The notes beneath the pieces are model-generated. The model saw only the letters and a list, made by a program, of their open reading frames with translations, was not told the origin of the DNA and made no database searches. The position numbers and the translations under genes were made by a program. Positions 2,386 to 22,684 of a DNA stretch of 64,000 nucleotides are shown here, in pieces. The first letter of the stretch is position 1. Each line of letters begins with the position of its first letter. This DNA is from a virus. Location of the stretch: positions 62,001 through 126,000 of IMG/VR virus record IMGVR_UViG_3300034013_000869, one strand, 5' to 3'.

Positions 2386-4484
2386 ATATCTTTTGGTTTC
2401 TTCAATGGTTCAACAATAACTCTACCATTATCATCAGTCCATTCCGTATCATACATATGTTTATCATGTCTTTCTCCGATTACCATCCAACTAATCTCAT
2501 CAGAAGAAGTATTTGACTCGGATATTATCTCAAGTATATTTCCAGTAACTTTTCCTTTAACAGGTGTCCATCCTGTTTCATTTGTTGTAAAACATTGAAC
2601 ATCTCTATTTAATAAAACAAAAGTGCCTTCAGTCATATTTGAAGATTCATCTAAATTAATTTCAGATTTACCATTAACTAAGGATACTTTTCCTCTATAG
2701 ATCAAATCAGCTTTAGGACCTTCAATGAAGGAGTGTACTAATTCATATTTATCTTTCATAGATTCAATTGGATGATCAATTCTAAAAGATCCACTACCCT
2801 TACTTAAACTACCAGTAACAGATGCATTTGAACTAATGAAGAAATTTTGTTGACCTGTCCAATCTATTGAACATAACGCATTTGAAGAAATAACCGTATA
2901 ACCATTACCAAGAGATAAGTCATATTTGTTTATAGTCAATGTGGCGTTATTTAATGGTGAGTGTATGATAATATCAGTAGCACCTCCTTGTTTTATCTCC
3001 AATTTTTTAGTACCACTTGTGCTAAAAGCAATAACATTAGCACTTGGCATATACATACCACTTTGAGTATATCCATACCATGTGTAATCAGGAGCCGCTG
3101 CCGTTGAAAAAGAAGTACTGACAGCACCTACCTGTATATAAGGAGATTTAGTTGTAGTACCTGTACCTAAACTAGTAGCTGTTGTAAATACAACACCACC
3201 ATTTCCAGCATTTGTTCCTTTAATATGCATTCTAGGTGTTCCATTTGTAGTAAATGCTATTTGATTAGTAGTAGGTCTATAAATACCAGTATCAATATCA
3301 CCAGTAAATGTAATAGATGGAGCTGTTGGAGTACCATTACTATACCTTATTGGTGAAGTACTAAGAGAATATGTAGCATACAATCTAAATGGAACAGATC
3401 CACTTACTGAAAATCCAATAAATGGAGCTGTGTAAACTATTGGAGAAGTACCCGGAATTGCTGTATCAACACCAGCTCCAAATATACCAGAATCATTACC
3501 AAAAGCAATAGGTGGATTATCAGGTCCATTAAGTTCAGCACTACCAAACATAAGACCTGTAAGGTAATAGGTAGGTAATAACATTTGAGCAGTAACTGAA
3601 TTAAATGCGAACCCAGTCCCTCTAGAATTATTGTAATAAGTACTAACACTAGCACCATTCACATTAGAAGCCGTAGATGAAAACATCATATATTTTAATC
3701 CACTCGAAGAAGGTGAGACTTGTGAATTATAAACAGTAACGGTGGAAGCTGTTTTAGATCTATCAGAAATTATATTAGTAATCTGACTACCATCTCCTTT
3801 AAAGAAACCACTTGTTTTTATATTTCCAGTAACATCTAAAATCTCTGCAGGTAAAACAGTAGAGCTCCAATTTGAACCAATACCAACTTTATTATTATTT
3901 GAAAGATAAATGGTTTGAACAGGAGCTCCTGAACCACCTGGTCTATTTGATATAGATAAATCTCCTTGGTCATTACCAAAGCTAATCAATGAAGAACCCT
4001 TAGATGAGTTAAAATAACCATTACCACCGACAAAACCAGTATAATACCAATTAGAACCAATAATGGTTGTTCCACCTTTATGTATAACCAATGGAGGTGC
4101 TTGACCCGCAACATAATTAGGATCTTCAGCAAGACTCATTCCACCAAACTGCATATAGGTATTATTACCAGTTGGATTATTAGTACCAACACCAATTCTT
4201 TTTTCAGTACCTGTGCTAACCTGGAAAACTCCACTATTTCCTATATAATTTTGAGATGTAAATAAAGGAACATATCCAGCTACCCCATTAACTTGGTCAG
4301 TTATTTCGGCACTGAAGGTAGTGCCATTATAATAGTATGATCTATTATCAGATGTATCAAAAACTCTTAGACCAGTATATTTATATGGTATTGAATTTCT
4401 AGCAGCAGCACCAGATGCGACTATTCTATTATCCAATGGAGTTGAATTATTTACGGTGAATCCTGTTATTATTTGTATTGACAT
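2382..4484 (-). CDS. Tail fibre / adhesin-like structural protein
   Basis: 700 residues, rich in G, S, T and N, with many short repeats of the type IAFxxxGTxRMHIKG and APxxTWYGYTQSG typical of trimeric beta-structured fibres. The C-terminal part (about residues 560-700) has SGSFRIDHP...YELVHSFIEGP-ADLIYRG, a signature I remember from virion structural/fibre proteins of marine T4-like phages. It probably forms the distal fibre tip or a baseplate-attached fibre that contacts the host. It is the last gene of a three-gene minus-strand block. Confidence 0.75.
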   Translation of the reverse strand: MSIQIITGFTVNNSTPLDNRIVASGAAARNSIPYKYTGLRVFDTSDNRSYYYNGTTFSAEITDQVNGVAGYVPLFTSQNYIGNSGVFQVSTGTEKRIGVGTNNPTGNNTYMQFGGMSLAEDPNYVAGQAPPLVIHKGGTTIIGSNWYYTGFVGGNGYFNSSKGSSLISFGNDQGDLSISNRPGGSGAPVQTIYLSNNNKVGIGSNWSSTVLPAEILDVTGNIKTSGFFKGDGSQITNIISDRSKTASTVTVYNSQVSPSSSGLKYMMFSSTASNVNGASVSTYYNNSRGTGFAFNSVTAQMLLPTYYLTGLMFGSAELNGPDNPPIAFGNDSGIFGAGVDTAIPGTSPIVYTAPFIGFSVSGSVPFRLYATYSLSTSPIRYSNGTPTAPSITFTGDIDTGIYRPTTNQIAFTTNGTPRMHIKGTNAGNGGVVFTTATSLGTGTTTKSPYIQVGAVSTSFSTAAAPDYTWYGYTQSGMYMPSANVIAFSTSGTKKLEIKQGGATDIIIHSPLNNATLTINKYDLSLGNGYTVISSNALCSIDWTGQQNFFISSNASVTGSLSKGSGSFRIDHPIESMKDKYELVHSFIEGPKADLIYRGKVSLVNGKSEINLDESSNMTEGTFVLLNRDVQCFTTNETGWTPVKGKVTGNILEIISESNTSSDEISWMVIGERHDKHMYDTEWTDDNGRVIVEPLKKPKDI

Positions 4485-4502: not shown

Positions 4503-6023
4503 TTAATACTTGAATTGATAATTTACAGAAGGTGGACCAACTTGTGGTATACCCGTCCATTTGTAAACTTTGAATTGTTTTGAAGCCCAAAGACCACTTG
4601 GTGATGATAGTATTGTTAAAGTCGGTATTGAAAAAGAGTTTCCAATAATTACTGAAATATTATCAATAACCTCATCTAAATCTGGATAAGTACTATCATA
4701 AATAAAATATAAATTACCACTACCAGTTATATCAATTGTCTTATCTCCTAAAGGTTCAACTAATTTAGTAAGACCAGAAAGACCAGCTGTATTCATAGCA
4801 GAAAGGGCACTAAATCCATAAAAATATGGATATATTCCACTAATACTAGCAGTTGATGTATTTGATTGAGTTCCATCTCCAACGGTAGCAGCAAAGTAAG
4901 TAGTTGTATTAGAAACTGGTGATATAACTATACCAGATGCTGTTCCAGATACGACAGTTGTTCCAGCAGTTGATATAGGAGGATATGAACTTGGAACCAT
5001 ATTTGACAAAGATGTTATGTTTGTTGGATAAGTTCTTTTTGTTATTGTATAATTTAATTTAATCAATGGTGAAGTACCAACTTCAACATATCCTGAAGAA
5101 TATGGAGGTAAAACAGATACCGAACATGTTGGAGGTAAGTAGGAATAAACTATTCTTCTTAACATCTCAGACATCTCAACTAAACTAAAAGTCTCTCCCA
5201 TCTGTATATCACCAATAGAAACTAAACAAGGTCTACTATCTGTAAATTCAATTGGATATCCATTAACATTAATAGGACCACCATTTATATTTATAGGTGA
5301 ACCAGTTACACCAATACTACTCATACTAGGTAATGTTATGTTATCCCAAACATAGTTACCATTATTCCAAACCAATATTCTCCCATCAGAGGCTCCTGTC
5401 AAACCAGGAGTTAGATTAGCCGAGTCCGATATAGTTGGAAAAACTATATTATTAACAGAAACTGAACCATAATCACTAGTCAAATTTATATTACCACCCG
5501 TATTACTTGGATTAACTATATCAAATGATAATGAACTTGTAGATGCTATAGTCTGTACTTGTAAATAAGGAGCGACACTATATAAAGAAGATTTTGTTCC
5601 TGATAAAATAGAAACTCTTGTCCTTCCGTTGGAAATAGTATCTCTTTTAGTATTGAATAAAAATATATCAACATCGCTATTCAACAAAGATGTTGACATT
5701 ATATCTTGATAAGGTGAATATGATGAATATGTTCCTGAAAAAGATCTTTTACCAAAGTAAATTTTATTTTTCAAATCACCATCTAATGGATCAGATGTAT
5801 CAATTCCTATGTAAGAATCATTTGAAACTTTTGTTTGAGTAAATATAGAATTAGCAGCAGTTGTTAAAAAAACATCTCTTAAATCCTTAGGATTAATTTG
5901 TTTACTAGTATTATCCTCTAAAACCGTTAAAACCTGACTTAAATCAACGCCAGTGGCTCCAATTAAATCATAAGTGGTTGCTTCTGTTGATAGTCCTATA
6001 TTTACACTAAATGTTGCTGCCAT
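4503..6023 (-). CDS. Fibre/baseplate-associated structural protein, paralogue of the next gene upstream
   Basis: 506 residues. The first 130 residues (SxGLxTEA; NPKDLRDVFLTTAAN; YIGIDT; KIYFGKRSF) align position by position with the protein at 6026-7684. Later shared pieces include RILVWNNGNYVWDN-like and NVNGYPIEF segments. After residue 270 the sequence becomes S/T/G/Y-rich and diverges, as in exchangeable receptor-binding tips. Its start is separated by only 2 nt from its paralogue's stop. Likely tail fibre or collar whisker; exact role unknown. Confidence 0.65.
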   Translation of the reverse strand: MAATFSVNIGLSTEATTYDLIGATGVDLSQVLTVLEDNTSKQINPKDLRDVFLTTAANSIFTQTKVSNDSYIGIDTSDPLDGDLKNKIYFGKRSFSGTYSSYSPYQDIMSTSLLNSDVDIFLFNTKRDTISNGRTRVSILSGTKSSLYSVAPYLQVQTIASTSSLSFDIVNPSNTGGNINLTSDYGSVSVNNIVFPTISDSANLTPGLTGASDGRILVWNNGNYVWDNITLPSMSSIGVTGSPININGGPINVNGYPIEFTDSRPCLVSIGDIQMGETFSLVEMSEMLRRIVYSYLPPTCSVSVLPPYSSGYVEVGTSPLIKLNYTITKRTYPTNITSLSNMVPSSYPPISTAGTTVVSGTASGIVISPVSNTTTYFAATVGDGTQSNTSTASISGIYPYFYGFSALSAMNTAGLSGLTKLVEPLGDKTIDITGSGNLYFIYDSTYPDLDEVIDNISVIIGNSFSIPTLTILSSPSGLWASKQFKVYKWTGIPQVGPPSVNYQFKY

Positions 6024-6025
6024 AA

Positions 6026-7684
6026 TTAAAAAATAAATTCAAATTCACCACTACCACTATAACTACAAGTTCCTATTGTTCTATAAACTCTGTAATTACC
6101 ATAATTGATTTCAGTTCCTGAAAGTGCCGGTGTTACTGAACCAGAATAAGTAAATGAACTAGTCAATGGATAAGCTGCATCATATACAATATAACCGTTA
6201 GGATCTTTTATCATTGATAACTCACCATAATTATAATCTATTGAGTAAGGAACTAAAAAGTACAAATACCCTGATCCACTACAATTAAATGATACTGATT
6301 GAGAGTTTCCAGGATATGGTGTAATATGTTTATTAGATATATTCATAATAAGTCTAGTTCTACTACCATTTATAAAGAATGTCGAAGATCCGGTATTGAT
6401 AGTACTATTGAATATTGTAAAAAATGGACTTAAAAATGTCAAAGAAGCCGTAGCAAAATGATTGATTAATGTATAACCCAGTGAGTCTAATGAATCAGAT
6501 GCTTGTATTGCATAATCATTTGTTACAGGTGTAGAAACATAATCTCTTTTAACACTGTAAGTAAAAGTAACAATAGTTTGATCACCTGGTAGGGCACTTG
6601 AGAAAGACAAACCAGAGTATGTACCAACAGCACCAACGGTATAAGGTGATGTATTAGATGGACCATATATCTGATAAGTATCAATATTTTCGGAATACTT
6701 TGTTACTGAGTATGTAAAACTAATAGATGATGTAACTCCTATCTCAGCATAATTATCACCAGTAGCTAAATTAGACAATTGTATTGTAAGACCTGGAGGA
6801 GAATATGGATATAAAAGTTTTCTTATAACCTCAACCATTGGCCAGTTTTGATAGTTACCAGTTACCAATGTAGCATCATATCCAAAAGAAGGAAATGAAC
6901 TTCCAGCTTGAATACCACCAATGGTTTGAGTAGTCAATGTAGGATCGACAAATTCTAATGAATAACCATTAACATTACTTGGACTACCATAAATATTAGT
7001 AGGAGTCCCAGGAACTCCAATACTTGAAATCGATATTGTTGGATCATCCCATCTTAAAGAACCATTCGGCCAAGTTCCTGAATACTTTAATATTCTACCA
7101 TTTGAAGCAGACGCTGATGTTTCAGCAGCTGTTGGAAAAACTATACCATTTATAGCAACTCTACCAGTATTACTATAAATATTTATTGGACCACTATAAA
7201 TAGATGGATTAACGATATCTAAATTTATAGCAGTTCCTGTTGAATTAGATTCGGCTTGTATATAAGGAGCACTCGTATATAAACTTGAATTAGTTCCAGC
7301 TAAAATAGCAATTCTTGTTTGACTTTGAGTTACTGTATCTGGTTTTGTGTTAAAGAAATAAATATCAGTAGGGTTTGTATAAGAAAGTAAAGCATTATTC
7401 ATTATATCAACGCCTGTATAATTTCTTTTACCAATAAATATCTTTTGTTTTATATCTCTATTTTCTGGATTACCAGAGTCAATACCAATATACTCTAAAG
7501 AAGACAAACCTATAGTTTGTTTAAAAGCAGCATTTGCCCAAGTTGATAAAAAGGCATCTCTAACATCTTTTGGTGATATTAATTTTTGTGTATTATCAGG
7601 TATATCCAATAAGACACTATTAATGTCTTGCTTTCTAAGGGCTTCAGTTGGCAATCCAACACTTATACTATATGTAGCTGGCAT
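6026..7684 (-). CDS. Fibre/baseplate-associated structural protein, paralogue of 4503-6023
   Basis: 552 residues with the same N-terminal module as its downstream neighbour (SVGLPTEA, SPKDVRDAFLSTWAN, EYIGIDSG, KIFIGKRNY) and a divergent C-terminal half rich in S, T, Y and P. The pattern of conserved N-terminal anchor and variable C-terminal half is usual for host-recognition fibres. A TTTAATATATA element lies 19 nt upstream of the ATG, so transcription of the fibre block probably begins here. Confidence 0.65.
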   Translation of the reverse strand: MPATYSISVGLPTEALRKQDINSVLLDIPDNTQKLISPKDVRDAFLSTWANAAFKQTIGLSSLEYIGIDSGNPENRDIKQKIFIGKRNYTGVDIMNNALLSYTNPTDIYFFNTKPDTVTQSQTRIAILAGTNSSLYTSAPYIQAESNSTGTAINLDIVNPSIYSGPINIYSNTGRVAINGIVFPTAAETSASASNGRILKYSGTWPNGSLRWDDPTISISSIGVPGTPTNIYGSPSNVNGYSLEFVDPTLTTQTIGGIQAGSSFPSFGYDATLVTGNYQNWPMVEVIRKLLYPYSPPGLTIQLSNLATGDNYAEIGVTSSISFTYSVTKYSENIDTYQIYGPSNTSPYTVGAVGTYSGLSFSSALPGDQTIVTFTYSVKRDYVSTPVTNDYAIQASDSLDSLGYTLINHFATASLTFLSPFFTIFNSTINTGSSTFFINGSRTRLIMNISNKHITPYPGNSQSVSFNCSGSGYLYFLVPYSIDYNYGELSMIKDPNGYIVYDAAYPLTSSFTYSGSVTPALSGTEINYGNYRVYRTIGTCSYSGSGEFEFIF

Positions 7685-11454: not shown

Positions 11455-12906
11455 TTAAAGTTGGATAGCTTTAATCTCATTAAATAAAGCCTTCTTATCT
11501 AACTCCATCATTTTCATGATGTCAAAAACTTTATCGCTGAAGCCAGCCAAAGCAAAAACGTTTTGTTCTGGAAATTGAAGTGTAGAGTAACCAGCCAAAT
11601 CCCAAGAATAAACATATGGATTAGCTCCAAACTTTTTCTTGTATTGACTGAACTCAGAAGCGGGTGTTGTATAACCCATCCAACCTTGCATATCTGACAA
11701 GATGATAACTCTGTCATACTTCTTATTAGCCTTTTGGAAGATAGAACGGAAGTTCGTACCACCACCAGAGAATCTAAAAGAGTTTCTAATAGTCATTACA
11801 GAATCCATTGGATTGTAAGACATATAATTAGCGTTAGTAGAGAAAGTCATAACATCACAGTTATTAACTTTAGCTAAAATAGCTCCAAATAAAGAAGCAA
11901 TTTCAGATGGTTTACCACTCATAGAACCAGAGACATCCATAACAACAAGTGTTTCGCCATCAAATACTGGTACGTTAGCAACAGAGATATCAAGTGCTTG
12001 GTTGATTGCCATAAGAACTTCTCTTACTTCTTTAGAAGAACCAACCTTACTGATTTCTTCATAAGCAGTTGAGAAACGGAATGGAAGAACTCTAGAGTTC
12101 TTAATCAACTTTTCATCAACTAACATTTCACAAGCTGCTGAAATAGAATCAGGAGATTGGGATATAATATTTCTTAGGTTTTTAAGAAGTGCAAAATATC
12201 CCAATTTTCTTGTAGAAATTAATTCAGACCAAGCATCAGACTTTAATTTAGTTAAATCTTCTTCAGACTCAGCCATTTGACCAGCTAGTGATAACTTAGA
12301 TTCCCAAGTTTGTGTGTTTTTCAACTCACCTTTAATAAGTAACTCTAAAGCTTCTTTATTTCTCATAGTAGGAACTGGGTGGACAATGTTAACTAAGTCA
12401 ACAAGTTTTACATCTTTGTTATCACCTTTATATTTGGCCAATTGGTAACCATCAAACTTATCAAAAGCCTTAGCAAATCCTTTCTTCAAAGCATTTGGGA
12501 ACTTAGGACTATCCTTAGAAGTCTTATAAGCTAGATAGTAAGACATGATTTCAGTCATATCATCAACACGAACAACTACTTTATCGTAGAAGTTTTTACC
12601 CCACTCAGCACCTTCCAATTGTGAAGTTAATTCACCAGCAAGTGCGTGAGTAATACTTCTCATACCGAAACGGTCACGAGCAAAAATAGCTGCCTTAGCA
12701 ATAAATTCTTTATCTTTCACTTTAGTAGAAAGTTTTCTCAATTCATCTAAAGATGTTTGAGCATTTCTATAAAACTGATCATTAACAAATGATGTTAATA
12801 ATAAAGATACTAATGCTAATTCATTAGATTGTGAATAAGCTTGACCACCTGCTAGGTTTTCAGTTAAAGTTTTTGCCTTTGGCATTGTTGTGTTAAATTT
12901 TGACAT
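11455..12906 (-). CDS. TROVE-domain Ro60-like RNA-binding protein
   Basis: 483 residues. Residues 15-310 form a helical HEAT-like TROVE region; residues about 318-480 form a von Willebrand A domain with the MIDAS motif DVSGSMS (324-330). Bacterial Ro60 orthologues bind Y RNAs and misfolded RNAs and gate exonucleases such as PNPase. Length is near that of bacterial Ro proteins. A structured non-coding RNA region and its terminator lie directly upstream on the same strand, the arrangement expected for a Ro/Y-RNA pair. Phage Ro proteins are known from mycobacteriophages. Likely role: RNA quality control or stabilising a phage RNA. Confidence 0.9.
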   Translation of the reverse strand: MSKFNTTMPKAKTLTENLAGGQAYSQSNELALVSLLLTSFVNDQFYRNAQTSLDELRKLSTKVKDKEFIAKAAIFARDRFGMRSITHALAGELTSQLEGAEWGKNFYDKVVVRVDDMTEIMSYYLAYKTSKDSPKFPNALKKGFAKAFDKFDGYQLAKYKGDNKDVKLVDLVNIVHPVPTMRNKEALELLIKGELKNTQTWESKLSLAGQMAESEEDLTKLKSDAWSELISTRKLGYFALLKNLRNIISQSPDSISAACEMLVDEKLIKNSRVLPFRFSTAYEEISKVGSSKEVREVLMAINQALDISVANVPVFDGETLVVMDVSGSMSGKPSEIASLFGAILAKVNNCDVMTFSTNANYMSYNPMDSVMTIRNSFRFSGGGTNFRSIFQKANKKYDRVIILSDMQGWMGYTTPASEFSQYKKKFGANPYVYSWDLAGYSTLQFPEQNVFALAGFSDKVFDIMKMMELDKKALFNEIKAIQL

Positions 12907-12940
12907 AATTTTATTTTTAATTTTAATTTATTTTTAAACA

Positions 12941-12980
12941 AAAAAGACCAGATAAAACATTTCTGTTAAATCTGGTCTTT
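12941..12980 (-). terminator. Rho-independent terminator of the upstream non-coding RNA
   Basis: Stem AAAGACCAGAT / ATCTGGTCTTT (12943-12953 with 12970-12980), further closed by AACA/TGTT. Read on the minus strand it ends in a T run, so it terminates a transcript arriving from 13.4 kb before the Ro60 gene. Confidence 0.8.
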
Positions 12981-12983
12981 ATA

Positions 12984-13478
12984 ATTTGCGCAAACAAGTA
13001 AATTTAGCCTAAGGCGTTACAAAGAATTCTCCCGAAACTCTGCCTGTGTATTATCGTGTCCATCATACGAGTTTTTTTATTTAAAGGAAGTAAACTTTTT
13101 CCTTGACTTAGCCCTTAAAAAGGATTTACAGGAGTCACCCGGACTTTTTCACTTTAATTCAGTATGTCCTTTCGGCTTCATCTGAATTCAGTAGCCTTGC
13201 TGTCGCTTAGCACTTTTTCGATCATAGTTTATATTTGAATTTATCGAAGTATCTCAAACTATCGCTATGTCTGCGTTTTAATTATATTGACCAGAGAAAA
13301 TTACTAAAGAGTGTTTTTTAGAATAAATGTTTCGAAGTAACTCTTTAATTTACTACTGGAATTTTTTAATTGTCTTTCTTTTATATCTGAAAATCAAAAA
13401 GTTTTAATTTTCTTCAAAAAAAGTTTTTTTAATTTGTTTAGTATATATCAACCTCTAAAATTTCACTTTTTTCAAAGG
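12984..13478 (-). ncRNA. Candidate large structured non-coding RNA upstream of Ro60
   Basis: No convincing reading frame covers this stretch, it is less AT-rich than its surroundings, and it ends in a strong terminator. On the minus strand I find compensating stems: AAAGAG/CTCTTT, ATAGTTT/AAACTAT interleaved with TTCGAT/ATCGAA (an H-type pseudoknot at about 13215-13260), AATTCAG/CTGAATT capped by a GCCGAAAGG hairpin (13155-13195), a TGACT/AGTCA helix crossing GTAAA..CTTTTT/AAAAAG-TTTAC (13085-13138), and GAGTT/AATTC with a 7-base loop (13025-13041). It could be a Ro60-bound Y-type RNA or another large ornate phage RNA. The 5' end is not defined. Confidence 0.55.
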
Positions 13479-13494
13479 TGGATTGTTTACAGAT
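13479..13494 (-). promoter_or_regulatory. TCTGTAAACAATCCAC promoter-like element
   Basis: Variant of the minus-strand element also seen before the protease-scaffold and capsid genes. It lies at the 5' side of the non-coding RNA candidate, just downstream of the gene at 13507. Confidence 0.45.
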
Positions 13495-13506
13495 AAGTTA
13501 TATACC

Positions 13507-14148
13507 TTACTTACCAATATGTTTAGAGATTTCATAAATTAATTCCTCTAACTCTTCTTCTGACATTTTATCAGTTACCTTCAAATCATCGGTATTTACA
13601 AGGTCTCCAGGCATTTCTTGTTGAACTGGAGTGATTATATAATCAGAAAATTCTTCTTTCTCTTCATCAGTAAAACATTTAACCATTGATAAATAAGACC
13701 AATCTAATTTATCTTTCCATTGTCTAATAAAATCAATTGATAAGTCATTAGCACTAATAACAGACCATAAATTTTTATCTTCAATAACTTTAGTATGATT
13801 GTCAAATGAATCAGATTGAGTAGAGATATAAAGTATCATTCTATCCCAATTAATATTTTCTTTATACTTAGTGATAAAATCATCAGATAGATTAGAATAT
13901 GTTGTCATACTTAATTCTGTAATATCTTCGATATTTAAATACTCCATTTCAATAGCTTTAATAATAAACTCTTCTGAAAAATTCAAACCTTGAATAAGAA
14001 CTTCTTTATCTAAAAGGTCTGTACATTCTAAAATAGTATCTTCGGATAATTCATAATTTCTAACAATATCATATGTTTCATATCCACTTGATAATAATTC
14101 AATTACCCAACTTCTATCTAGTTTTCCTTCTATTTCAATTTTTTCCAT
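13507..14148 (-). CDS. Hypothetical helical-repeat protein
   Basis: 213 residues built from degenerate repeats of the form (L/S)-S-x-(D/E)-F-I-x-K/Q-(Y/W)-K-(D/E)-x-(I/L)-(N/D)-W-(D/S), visible around DDFITKYKENINWD and DFIRQWKDKLDWS. Such repeats occur in proteins of large phages and giant viruses and probably form an alpha-solenoid. No enzyme motif. It lies between ribonucleotide reductase and the non-coding RNA, with a terminator on its upstream side. Function unknown. Confidence 0.7.
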   Translation of the reverse strand: MEKIEIEGKLDRSWVIELLSSGYETYDIVRNYELSEDTILECTDLLDKEVLIQGLNFSEEFIIKAIEMEYLNIEDITELSMTTYSNLSDDFITKYKENINWDRMILYISTQSDSFDNHTKVIEDKNLWSVISANDLSIDFIRQWKDKLDWSYLSMVKCFTDEEKEEFSDYIITPVQQEMPGDLVNTDDLKVTDKMSEEELEELIYEISKHIGK

Positions 14149-14226: not shown

Positions 14227-16773
14227 TTAAGATCCACAAGCTAAACAATCATCTGGATTATCAAGTGAACAACTGATTTCAGCCATTTGTTCCTCAACAG
14301 ATTTATTATCTTCTTGAACGGTGAACTTAACAGCATCTGAAGCTGATTTGTTTCTTAGATAATAGATACCTGTTTTCAAAGCAGATTTCTTATCTCTATA
14401 ACATCTAGCTTTTCCTTCTGAATCATATATGATTTCAATAGATTCACCTTGAGGAATAATTGGAGTACCATCAGCATTCATAATAAAGTTTCTTCTTCCC
14501 CAACCATAAAAGTGCATTGAAGTCAACTTCGCAAAGTTTGGAGAATCCATAAAGATATTCATTGATTGTGTTTGGTCGATGAAAGCTCCTCTATCAGCAG
14601 CCATGTCAATAACATCTTTTTGTTTAATTTCATAAACCGTTTTATAAACTTCTTTTATGTTCGTAGGAACTTGTGGTATATTTTGAATAGAACCATTTTC
14701 TCCAATAATTCTTTTTCTTATATCATCATTCCATAATCCTAATTTAACCAATTCTTTTACAAGATATTTATTAACTAAGATAAATGTTCCAGAGAGTACA
14801 CTTCTTGTATACATATTTGAAGTTTGTGCTTCACAAGATGCTTCATTACCTAAGATAGATGCTGTAGAAGCAGTTGGCATAATACAAGTAGTTAAAGAAT
14901 TTCTAACACCATGTTTTTTAATTTCTTCTCTTAGTTTATCCCAATCCCATCTTTTTGTAGGTTTAGCACCCCATAAGTCAAATTGAAATTTACCTTGTGA
15001 AATAGGAGAACCTTCATATGTTACATAAGGACCTTGTTCTTTAGCTAAGTCACAAGAAGCTTTAATTGAAGCGTAATAAATAGTTTCAAAAATTTCTTTG
15101 TTTATTGATTTAGCTTCTTCTGATTCATAAGGTAATCCTAACATAAAGAATACATCAGCTAATCCTTGAACACCCAATCCAATTGGTCTATGTAATAGGT
15201 TAGAGAATTTAGCGGCCGGTGATGGATAAAAGTTAACATCAATTACATTATTCAAGTTAATTGTAGCTTGATAAGCAACATCATACAATTTATTGAAGTT
15301 ATAAGTTTTGTTTTTATTAACAAACTTAGGTAAAGCGATAGAAGCCAAGTTGCAAACAGCAGTTTCATTCACAGATTCTTCACCAAAAAACTCACCTAAT
15401 CCAATTCTTTCCAATAACTCTTTATTTTGTAGTATCTCAGCTTGTGTTTTAGTAATTCCAGTTGCTTCAACAATTTCAGCACAAAGGTTAGAACTTCTAA
15501 TCACACCAATATTAGATTGATTTGATTTCTCATTAATAGAATCTTTATAAAGAATGTAAGGAGTTCCTGTTTCAATTTGAGATTCAAGAATTTTATTCCA
15601 AACCTCTCTTGCTTTAAGAGTTCTTTTAGCTTTACCTTGTTGTTCATAGCTTGTGTAAAGTTCTCTGAATTCTTTACCATAAGTTTCTGTTAAACCAGAA
15701 CATTCGTGAGGACACATCAAAGACCAATCTTCATCAAGTTCAACTCTCTCCATAAATAAGTCATTCATCCACATAGCCAAGAATAAATCTCTAGCTCTAA
15801 TTTCATCTTTACCTTGATTCTTACGAAGGTCTAAGAACTCCATAATATCAGAATGCCAAGGTTCCATATAAATAGCAATTGAACCTTTTCTTTTACCACC
15901 ACCTTGGTCAACAGCTCTTGCTGTCTCATTAAAAATCTTCAAGAAAGGAATAATACCATTTGAGGTACCATTAGTACCAGCAATATAAGTTCCTTTAGAT
16001 CTAACTTTAGTGAAAGAAATACCGATACCTCCAGCGTTTTTAGAGATTTGAGCAGATTCTTTAAGAGTGTTAAAGATGCCTTCAATTGAATCATTCTCAA
16101 CATCTAATAAGAAACAAGATGATAATTGTGGTCTACCCGTACCAGAGTTAAATAAGGTTGGAGTAGCGTGTGTATAATAACCTTCTGAAAGTGTATTATA
16201 AGTTTCGATAACTTTTTCCAAGTTCTCACCCCATACTTGAAGAGCTGTTCTCATATACATATACTGAGGTCTTTCAGCTACTTTACCATTCAATTTCAAT
16301 AGATAAGACTTCTCTAATGTTTTGAATCCAAAGTAATCAAAATTGTGGTCTCTTGAATGCACAATAGCTGAATCAAGTTCACCAGCATGTTCTTTTACAA
16401 TTTTATAAAAGCTTTCAGAAACAATTGGAGAATGTTTACCTGTTTTAGGATCGATGTACTTATAAAGATCTTCAGCAGTTTCAGAAAAACTCTTTTTTGT
16501 TTCTTTATGCAAATTTGTAATTGCCAATCTAGCCGCTAAGATAGAATAATCAGGATGTTTAGTAGCTAAAGACGCAGCTGTCTCCATAGCTAATTGATCT
16601 AAAGTATAAGTTTTAATATCCGGTGTTATTCCTTCAATTACCTTTTGAGCAACTTCAAAAGGAATTATAAGTTTCTGATCTAACCCATAAGTTTGTTGTT
16701 TAATTCTGTCTAAAATTTTGTCCAGCATAACTGGCTCTTTCTTCCCATTTCTTTTTATTACTTTTATATTCAT
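14227..16773 (-). CDS. nrdA: Ribonucleoside-diphosphate reductase class I, large subunit
   Basis: 848 residues. An ATP-cone starts the protein (MNIKVIKRNGKKEPV). Catalytic features are visible: the substrate-proximal cysteine in QLSSCFLLD, NLCAEIVE with the Asn/Cys/Glu triad, the partner cysteine in AVCNLASIALP, and the C-terminal shuttle pair CLAC just before the end. It reduces NDPs to dNDPs for phage DNA synthesis. The small subunit is not in this window, so NrdB must be encoded elsewhere in the phage or supplied by the host. It lies upstream in the same direction as the repeat protein and Ro60. Confidence 0.95.
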   Translation of the reverse strand: MNIKVIKRNGKKEPVMLDKILDRIKQQTYGLDQKLIIPFEVAQKVIEGITPDIKTYTLDQLAMETAASLATKHPDYSILAARLAITNLHKETKKSFSETAEDLYKYIDPKTGKHSPIVSESFYKIVKEHAGELDSAIVHSRDHNFDYFGFKTLEKSYLLKLNGKVAERPQYMYMRTALQVWGENLEKVIETYNTLSEGYYTHATPTLFNSGTGRPQLSSCFLLDVENDSIEGIFNTLKESAQISKNAGGIGISFTKVRSKGTYIAGTNGTSNGIIPFLKIFNETARAVDQGGGKRKGSIAIYMEPWHSDIMEFLDLRKNQGKDEIRARDLFLAMWMNDLFMERVELDEDWSLMCPHECSGLTETYGKEFRELYTSYEQQGKAKRTLKAREVWNKILESQIETGTPYILYKDSINEKSNQSNIGVIRSSNLCAEIVEATGITKTQAEILQNKELLERIGLGEFFGEESVNETAVCNLASIALPKFVNKNKTYNFNKLYDVAYQATINLNNVIDVNFYPSPAAKFSNLLHRPIGLGVQGLADVFFMLGLPYESEEAKSINKEIFETIYYASIKASCDLAKEQGPYVTYEGSPISQGKFQFDLWGAKPTKRWDWDKLREEIKKHGVRNSLTTCIMPTASTASILGNEASCEAQTSNMYTRSVLSGTFILVNKYLVKELVKLGLWNDDIRKRIIGENGSIQNIPQVPTNIKEVYKTVYEIKQKDVIDMAADRGAFIDQTQSMNIFMDSPNFAKLTSMHFYGWGRRNFIMNADGTPIIPQGESIEIIYDSEGKARCYRDKKSALKTGIYYLRNKSASDAVKFTVQEDNKSVEEQMAEISCSLDNPDDCLACGS

Positions 16774-22501: not shown

Positions 22502-22684
22502 ATGCTTTACATGGATTACGATGAGTTTAATATCTATACCACAATTGAAGATGTCGAAAGCTATGTAGAAATTCTTTTTTCTCAAGGATTTGAGTTGAAA
22601 GATGAGATATATAGTAAGTGTTTAAGTTACTTTGGAAATGACTTCAAACATTTAATAGACAGATTCTTTTATGACGAAGATTAA
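22502..22684 (+). CDS. Small acidic hypothetical protein
   Basis: 60 residues, rich in Y, F, D and E. It overlaps the start of the HAD gene by 14 nt, so the two are translationally coupled. No recognisable motif. Confidence 0.55.
   Translation: MLYMDYDEFNIYTTIEDVESYVEILFSQGFELKDEIYSKCLSYFGNDFKHLIDRFFYDED

Follow-up and report, generated by a model that had tools for sequence, protein, structure and literature searches.

The region directly upstream of the Ro60 gene in this viral DNA encodes, with a probability that we put at about 0.82, a phage Y RNA, i.e., a noncoding RNA of some 430 nt with two tandem putative Ro60-binding stems and a likely Y-type partner of Ro60, a protein of RNA quality control. 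Two features of Y RNAs are found here: the ends are paired into a stem interrupted by a bulge and an asymmetric loop, and the gene is located next to ro60. The RNA resembles a Y RNA and probably functions as one. A Y RNA within a longer precursor, which the first-pass annotation of this DNA had proposed next to a new large RNA class, came close; the stronger form reached here is that the whole RNA consists of two Y-type modules, with the extra length beyond that of a Y RNA being a pseudoknotted domain of ~240 nt inserted in the loop of module 2.

The window, i.e., the whole stretch of 64,000 nt that was analyzed, belongs to a 175,660-base virus record. On its minus strand, the order is nrdA, an open reading frame (ORF) of 213 amino acids, the RNA region and Ro60, with the following features (window coordinates):

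14227-16773, minus strand: nrdA (ribonucleotide reductase)
13507-14148, minus strand: ORF of 213 amino acids, without Pfam match
13378-13404, minus strand: candidate promoter AAACTTTTTGATTTTCAGATATAAAAG, conserved in relatives
12940-13370, minus strand: whole RNA, two tandem Y-type modules and an intrinsic terminator (5' end predicted)
13288-13362, minus strand: module 1 (hairpin A)
12990-13274, minus strand: module 2 (domain B), same stem plan, loop occupied by a large pseudoknotted insert
12940-12977, minus strand: intrinsic terminator with U run
11455-12906, minus strand: Ro60 gene, TROVE and vWA domains

The Ro60 gene, which starts 33 nt past the terminator, was recognized by its Pfam domains (TROVE, 1.1e-17; vWA_Ro60, 1.2e-6) and by TROVE proteins in the PDB (E 6.5e-24); a literature search on the closest PDB entries, 9kop and 9l5y, returned nothing on either. 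Although 110 GenBank phage records matched this Ro60, none of the annotated phage regions examined had a Y RNA annotated beside the gene. Bacterial genome contigs yielded neither exact matches to the hairpin patterns described below nor close relatives of this Ro60. RtcB (PF01139) was not detected in the 175,660-base record or in those of eight relatives, all of which may be incomplete, and because it was not found there, we do not regard the locus as a bacterial-type RNA-repair operon. In three relatives (L017, L018 and L019), the Ro60 gene (~5001-7130) is broken after codon 160 by ~700 nt, and L017, L010 and L040 have an interrupted nrdA as well; these interruptions are possibly introns, and those in L017 and L010 gave no Rfam match.

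Relatives of the locus were collected by a Ro60 search of viral contigs, which gave 20 loci, and by blastn, which added LR745206, a phage of 634,780 bases. In nearly all of them (~20 phage contigs), the region upstream of Ro60 could be aligned, with many indels, and three parts emerge from the alignment, namely a hairpin at 13362-13288, the terminator and, between them, a second closed domain at 13274-12990. That this is a structured, conserved RNA is near certain. The structured minus-strand RNA that had been predicted from the letters was borne out by folding: z was -4.1 for 12930-13480 and -3.6 for 12940-13370, values that none of 100 shuffles matched for either stretch, versus -2.4 for the plus strand. 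The region was also said to be less AT-rich than its surroundings, which is true of the directly adjoining stretches (G+C 0.21-0.27, against 0.365-0.375 at 13000-13299) but not of the Ro60 gene, whose G+C content is about equal. Whether gathering or E-value thresholds were applied, Rfam searches of the region produced no matches or just those attributable to chance, and no Rfam family, YrlA included, was found in the window at its cut-off. Likenesses to a group I intron, tmRNA and RNase P were weighed by eye and dropped, no support being found for them.

Both ends of the RNA agree with the first-pass annotation, which had placed a terminator before Ro60 and a promoter-like element at the 5' side. 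The terminator (-16.5 kcal/mol, z -6.6) is kept in the clade alignment. The candidate promoter AAACTTTTTGATTTTCAGATATAAAAG occurs once in the window, against a chance expectation of 0.07, and the corresponding element, AAACTTTTT...ATAAAAG, precedes the RNA and is kept in the alignment of relatives. The RNA proper probably starts near 13370, leaving 13371-13494 as upstream region. A conserved element, AATCCACC...GAAAAA, was considered as a general phage promoter and rejected, having a single exact copy in the window. Upstream of the RNA, at 13443-13495, lies an inverted repeat, AATCCACCTTTGAAAAA...TTTTAGAGGTTGAT, that is likewise conserved; its left arm, too, has one exact copy in the window. 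Two relatives, L011 and L014, carry an extra hairpin-forming stretch between the terminator and the Ro60 start (GGACAAGCTCGTG...CACGAGCCTCTGTCC in L011), which the other relatives lack.

Both modules share one plan, consisting of P1, a single bulged U, AG/CU, an asymmetric loop, P2 and a conserved UACUUCG. Module 1 is a minimal Y hairpin, running from P1 through the bulged U, AG/CU, the asymmetric loop, P2, GUUACUUCG, a short loop, AAAAACAC, P2' and UUUUCUC to P1'. DNA patterns of the hairpin only (GUAGYNA, P2, GWUACUUCG, loop, AVAMAYAC) were scanned on viral contigs, and the matches were filtered by whether their arms can pair (stem-competent). A covariance model, R1, was built from 45 hairpin copies; it scores the window hairpin at 77.7 bits (E 4.6e-13), this hairpin being one of the 45. 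With an E limit of 1, R1 returned 110 matches from 65 sources. Compensatory changes are massive: over 90 distinct copies, 93.1% of cells are paired, versus 42-53% when the hairpin is slid, and 289 cells show double changes, versus 82 in shuffles, an effect far beyond the controls even if the alignment, being fitted to the model, leans towards structure. One further R1 match in the window (22605-22674, E 0.18) falls inside an ORF and was taken as chance.

As a module, the hairpin is mobile. At 7613-7760 of L038, a 33-kb contig of a different phage, hairpin A and the terminator occur by themselves; this contig has no TROVE match, and its ORFs appear, by eye, to be structural and methyltransferase-like. 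The huge phage LR745206, which has the same large RNA, carries three further Y-type modules, with tRNA genes adjoining:

342958-343029 of LR745206: extra Y-type module
369032-369173 of LR745206: extra Y-type module
388894-389001 of LR745206: extra Y-type module

Module 2 repeats the plan of hairpin A at both of its ends, reading GCAGACA-U-AG-CGA-UAGUUUGAG-A-UACUUCG at the 5' end and AACGC-CUUAGGCUA-AAUUUA-CU-U-GUUUGC at the 3' end, and comprises the following elements:

13265-13274, minus strand: 5' strand of P1 (GCAGACA, bulged U, AG)
12990-12998, minus strand: 3' strand of P1 (CUUGUUUGC)
13253-13261, minus strand: 5' strand of P2 (UAGUUUGAG)
13005-13013, minus strand: 3' strand of P2 (CUUAGGCUA)
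13014-13252, minus strand: pseudoknotted insert
13070-13104, minus strand: pseudoknot 1 (hairpin 13104-13099/13089-13084; loop 13096-13092 pairs with 13074-13070)
13041-13069, minus strand: pseudoknot 2 region, hairpin with CGU/ACG stem (helices 8 and 9)
13019-13043, minus strand: hairpin GCAGAG...CUUUGU beside the 3' strand of P2 (helix 10)

Compensatory changes are clear in the closing helices and pseudoknots of this module. With unpaired filler (N) placed by hand and the 3' strands kept in register, the closing helices of 17 sequences are 97.4% paired (22-57% when slid), and 10 pairs are changed on both sides, versus 3.9 in shuffles. The whole of module 2, with two pseudoknots, has 95.9% of its cells paired (31-45% when slid) and 16 double-change pairs, versus 8.3 in shuffles and 0-3 when slid. 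Within the insert, which is ~240 nt here and shorter in some relatives, all three tested loop-downstream pairs of pseudoknot 1 covary, with 100% pairing in the eight sequences without gaps at these positions; the helix 10 hairpin has three double-change pairs and 98.6% pairing. Support for pseudoknot 2 is weaker than that for pseudoknot 1: 86% of cells in helix 9 are paired, and its loop pairs downstream in most relatives but poorly in the window itself. The 5' strand of P2 can also pair locally with AAACUA; therefore, an alternative fold of module 2 is possible.

The long-range pairings that find support in relatives are P1/P2 of module 2 and the two loop-to-downstream pseudoknots, and not those of the first-pass annotation. 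The interleaved pairs originally pointed out, ATAGTTT/AAACTAT and TTCGAT/ATCGAA, do exist in the window and find no support in the relatives, where 72.7% of their cells are paired, versus 72.2% in shuffles, without an excess of double changes; the TTCGAT/ATCGAA pseudoknot is not conserved.

The connection to Ro60 was examined through the hairpin scan, which was run without Ro60 in the query. TROVE was encoded by 23 of 26 records with a stem-competent hairpin in the first set and by 9 of 10 in a further set (32 of 36 in total), versus 0 of 12 records in which the pattern match failed to form the stem (false positives). The four hairpin records without TROVE are short (7.6-33 kb). A hypergeometric probability of ~3e-8, calculated by hand, is indicative only, since several contigs among the 36 records are near-duplicates. 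In all 22 loci that contain both, hairpin and TROVE are encoded on the same strand; in 18 of these, they lie at most 1 kb apart, with the hairpin upstream in 14 and downstream in 4. No R1 match was found near the gene in the Ro60 phages of Vibrio, Streptomyces (BRock) and Thermus (phiLo).

Bacterial YrlA consists of a stem of paired ends and a domain resembling the D, T and acceptor arms of tRNA (PMC8394870). In other phages, the stem described here encloses just such tRNA-like inserts, mostly in permuted order (T arm, capped acceptor, D arm):

L055 1358-1232 and L080 4110-3987: tRNA-like inserts, normal order
L080, L064, L074, L088 and L122: permuted tRNA-like inserts in Y stems

At L080 4743-4582, 7848-7691 and 3705-3561 and at L056 6866-6705, the permuted inserts include an anticodon arm and, at the end of the acceptor, an encoded CCA; because these are kept, such inserts look like near-complete permuted tRNAs rather than worn mimics. 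The YrlA model RF02553 matched phage elements over its full length (E 7e-10 in G018, 2e-9 in G017 and 4e-8 in G021), all below its cut-off of 69 bits, the best score among other phage copies being 43.6 bits; the elements of G017 and G021 were matched by R1, too. As the model also gave E ~1e-6 on adjacent normal tRNA pairs (G051), its sub-threshold E-values overstate the likeness, and we treat these scores as supporting but not decisive. Sub-threshold matches in G051, W01 and G006 proved, on inspection, to be adjacent normal tRNAs. In the record of the window, RF02553 had no match even at E 1, and no tRNA-like domain (D, T and acceptor arms) was found in the RNA; having tested the RNA for both and found neither, we do not file it under RF02553. 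On another viral contig (L066, 278,785 bases), a bacterial-type RNase P RNA (1111-1452, 268 bits) is located close to a Y hairpin and a tRNA array.

Two bacterial plasmid loci allow the layout to be compared directly. A Rhizobium plasmid (L104) has an Rfam YrlA at 3706-3818, between ro60 and rtcB, and a Pseudomonas plasmid (L105) has six tandem minimal Y-type hairpins after ro60 (3640-4140), none matching Rfam YrlA at its cut-off. Their Y RNAs fold into P1, a loop of ~5 nt versus ~8 nt, P2 and CUACAUC, the same layout as that of the phage module with its UACUUCG. R1 misses both the YrlA of L104 and the hairpins of L105; since no single profile matches phage and bacterial RNAs, the homology of the stem rests on this layout and on the phage intermediates. 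The pseudoknotted domain of module 2 sits where YrlA and many phage copies carry the tRNA-like domain.

The alternative to be taken most seriously, although we consider it unlikely, is that the RNA is a cis-acting leader of the Ro60 mRNA that controls termination before Ro60, e.g., through autoregulation, with Ro60 on hairpin A deciding whether the terminator forms. In its favor, the terminator ends 33 nt before the start of Ro60, for which we recognized no separate promoter, and there is complementarity between the hairpin A 3' arm (CUCUGGUC) and the 5' arm of the terminator (GACCAGA), the two arms changing together in L014 and L024/L070. However, L017 and L065 retain this complementarity only in part, the local terminator is very stable, the L038 contig has hairpin A and terminator with no Ro60 nearby, and several phages have hairpins downstream of Ro60 and also inside tRNA arrays. 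A leader is, moreover, compatible with a Y RNA and not exclusive of it; as hairpin A and the terminator are complementary, the RNA could regulate in cis as well.

Considerably less probable is a new class of large phage RNAs akin to GOLLD/ROOL, found beside Ro60 only because both occur in huge phages. Such a class would suit an RNA that is large, pseudoknotted, phage encoded and without Rfam match, and whose module occurs among tRNA arrays, but the linkage to TROVE (32/36 vs. 0/12, same strand, usually <1 kb) and the occurrence of tRNA-like inserts within this stem make it more than a chance neighborhood. The many copies between tRNA genes could also suggest a hairpin that serves phage tRNA arrays as a spacer or in processing and has nothing to do with Ro60; against this, which we hold to be more improbable still, stand the same linkage to TROVE and the fact that ARAGORN detected tRNAs neither in the window nor at the loci of three relatives, where the module is nevertheless kept beside Ro60. 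As for a degenerate or overlooked protein-coding region, conservation across phages is all that speaks for it, and we give it next to no credence: the roughly 500 nt described earlier as lacking a credible gene indeed hold no ORF of at least 40 amino acids on the minus strand (12907-13506 in the ORF list, between the 213-amino-acid ORF and the Ro60 gene), relatives differ by indels of many lengths, and base-paired columns vary in a compensatory way. It is this covariation that refutes a coding region; between codon-type conservation and covarying stems, the outcome in relatives favors an RNA.

For the Y RNA that we prefer, we infer the following course of events. The RNA would be transcribed from the promoter near 13390 and end at 12940, with the Ro60 gene directly downstream being expressed via read-through of the terminator or from another start. 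Phage Ro60 would bind the P1/bulge/P2 stems; if it binds those of both modules, one RNA could therefore hold two Ro60 rings. Rsr-Y RNA complexes have a stem that holds Ro60 and a tRNA-like domain by which PNPase is tethered (PMC8394870, PMC4726728), the latter being the part of YrlA that binds PNPase in RYPER (PMC8394870); by analogy, the pseudoknotted domain may gate access or bring in a partner. A more specific reading, which we offer tentatively and at somewhat less than even odds, is that this domain represents a new kind of Y RNA effector, in which a domain for recruiting or blocking another target has taken the place of the PNPase-tethering tRNA mimic. If so, phages would possess a Ro60 machine of their own, in which one RNA provides two Ro60 stems. 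More broadly, phage Ro60 proteins gain a recognizable partner with a searchable model, and the Y RNA appears as modular, the same stem carrying a loop that is short, tRNA-like (normal or permuted) or pseudoknotted, so that the role of the loop domain becomes a testable question. In the literature searched, whose coverage did not extend to key Y RNA papers, we found neither a divergent Ro60-linked phage Y family nor the pseudoknotted form; one YrlA has been noted in a Mycolicibacterium prophage (PMC8190616).

Among known systems, GOLLD and ROOL resemble the phage RNA in being large and ornate and in having been reported in phages or near tRNAs; unlike them, the RNA described here is built on a Ro60-linked stem, and it has no Rfam match to either. 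The vertebrate Ro60 site comprises a 7-bp helix, a bulged C and a 3-nt bulge on the opposite strand (PMC4726728), and the phage stem has the outline of the lower stem of vertebrate Y RNAs, with a helix, a single bulged pyrimidine, two pairs and an asymmetric loop. This likeness is one of outline only; the sequence is not common to the two, and we do not claim homology. The closest counterpart is YrlA (RF02553) of the rsr-yrl-rtcBA operons. From this, the phage RNA differs in being too divergent for the RF02553 cut-off, in having UACUUCG instead of CUACAUC, in holding a pseudoknotted insert rather than a tRNA-like domain in module 2, in comprising two modules and ~430 nt, compared to the 90-150 nt quoted for YrlA (PMC8394870), and in a locus where no RtcB was found (phage record and eight relatives). 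In common with YrlA, however, its ends form a stem that contains an asymmetric internal loop, the 5' strand of P2 is followed by a UACWUC run, the gene lies beside ro60 and occurs in tandem copies, and its counterparts in other phages have tRNA-like inserts in the loop, often in the permuted order of T arm, acceptor and D arm.
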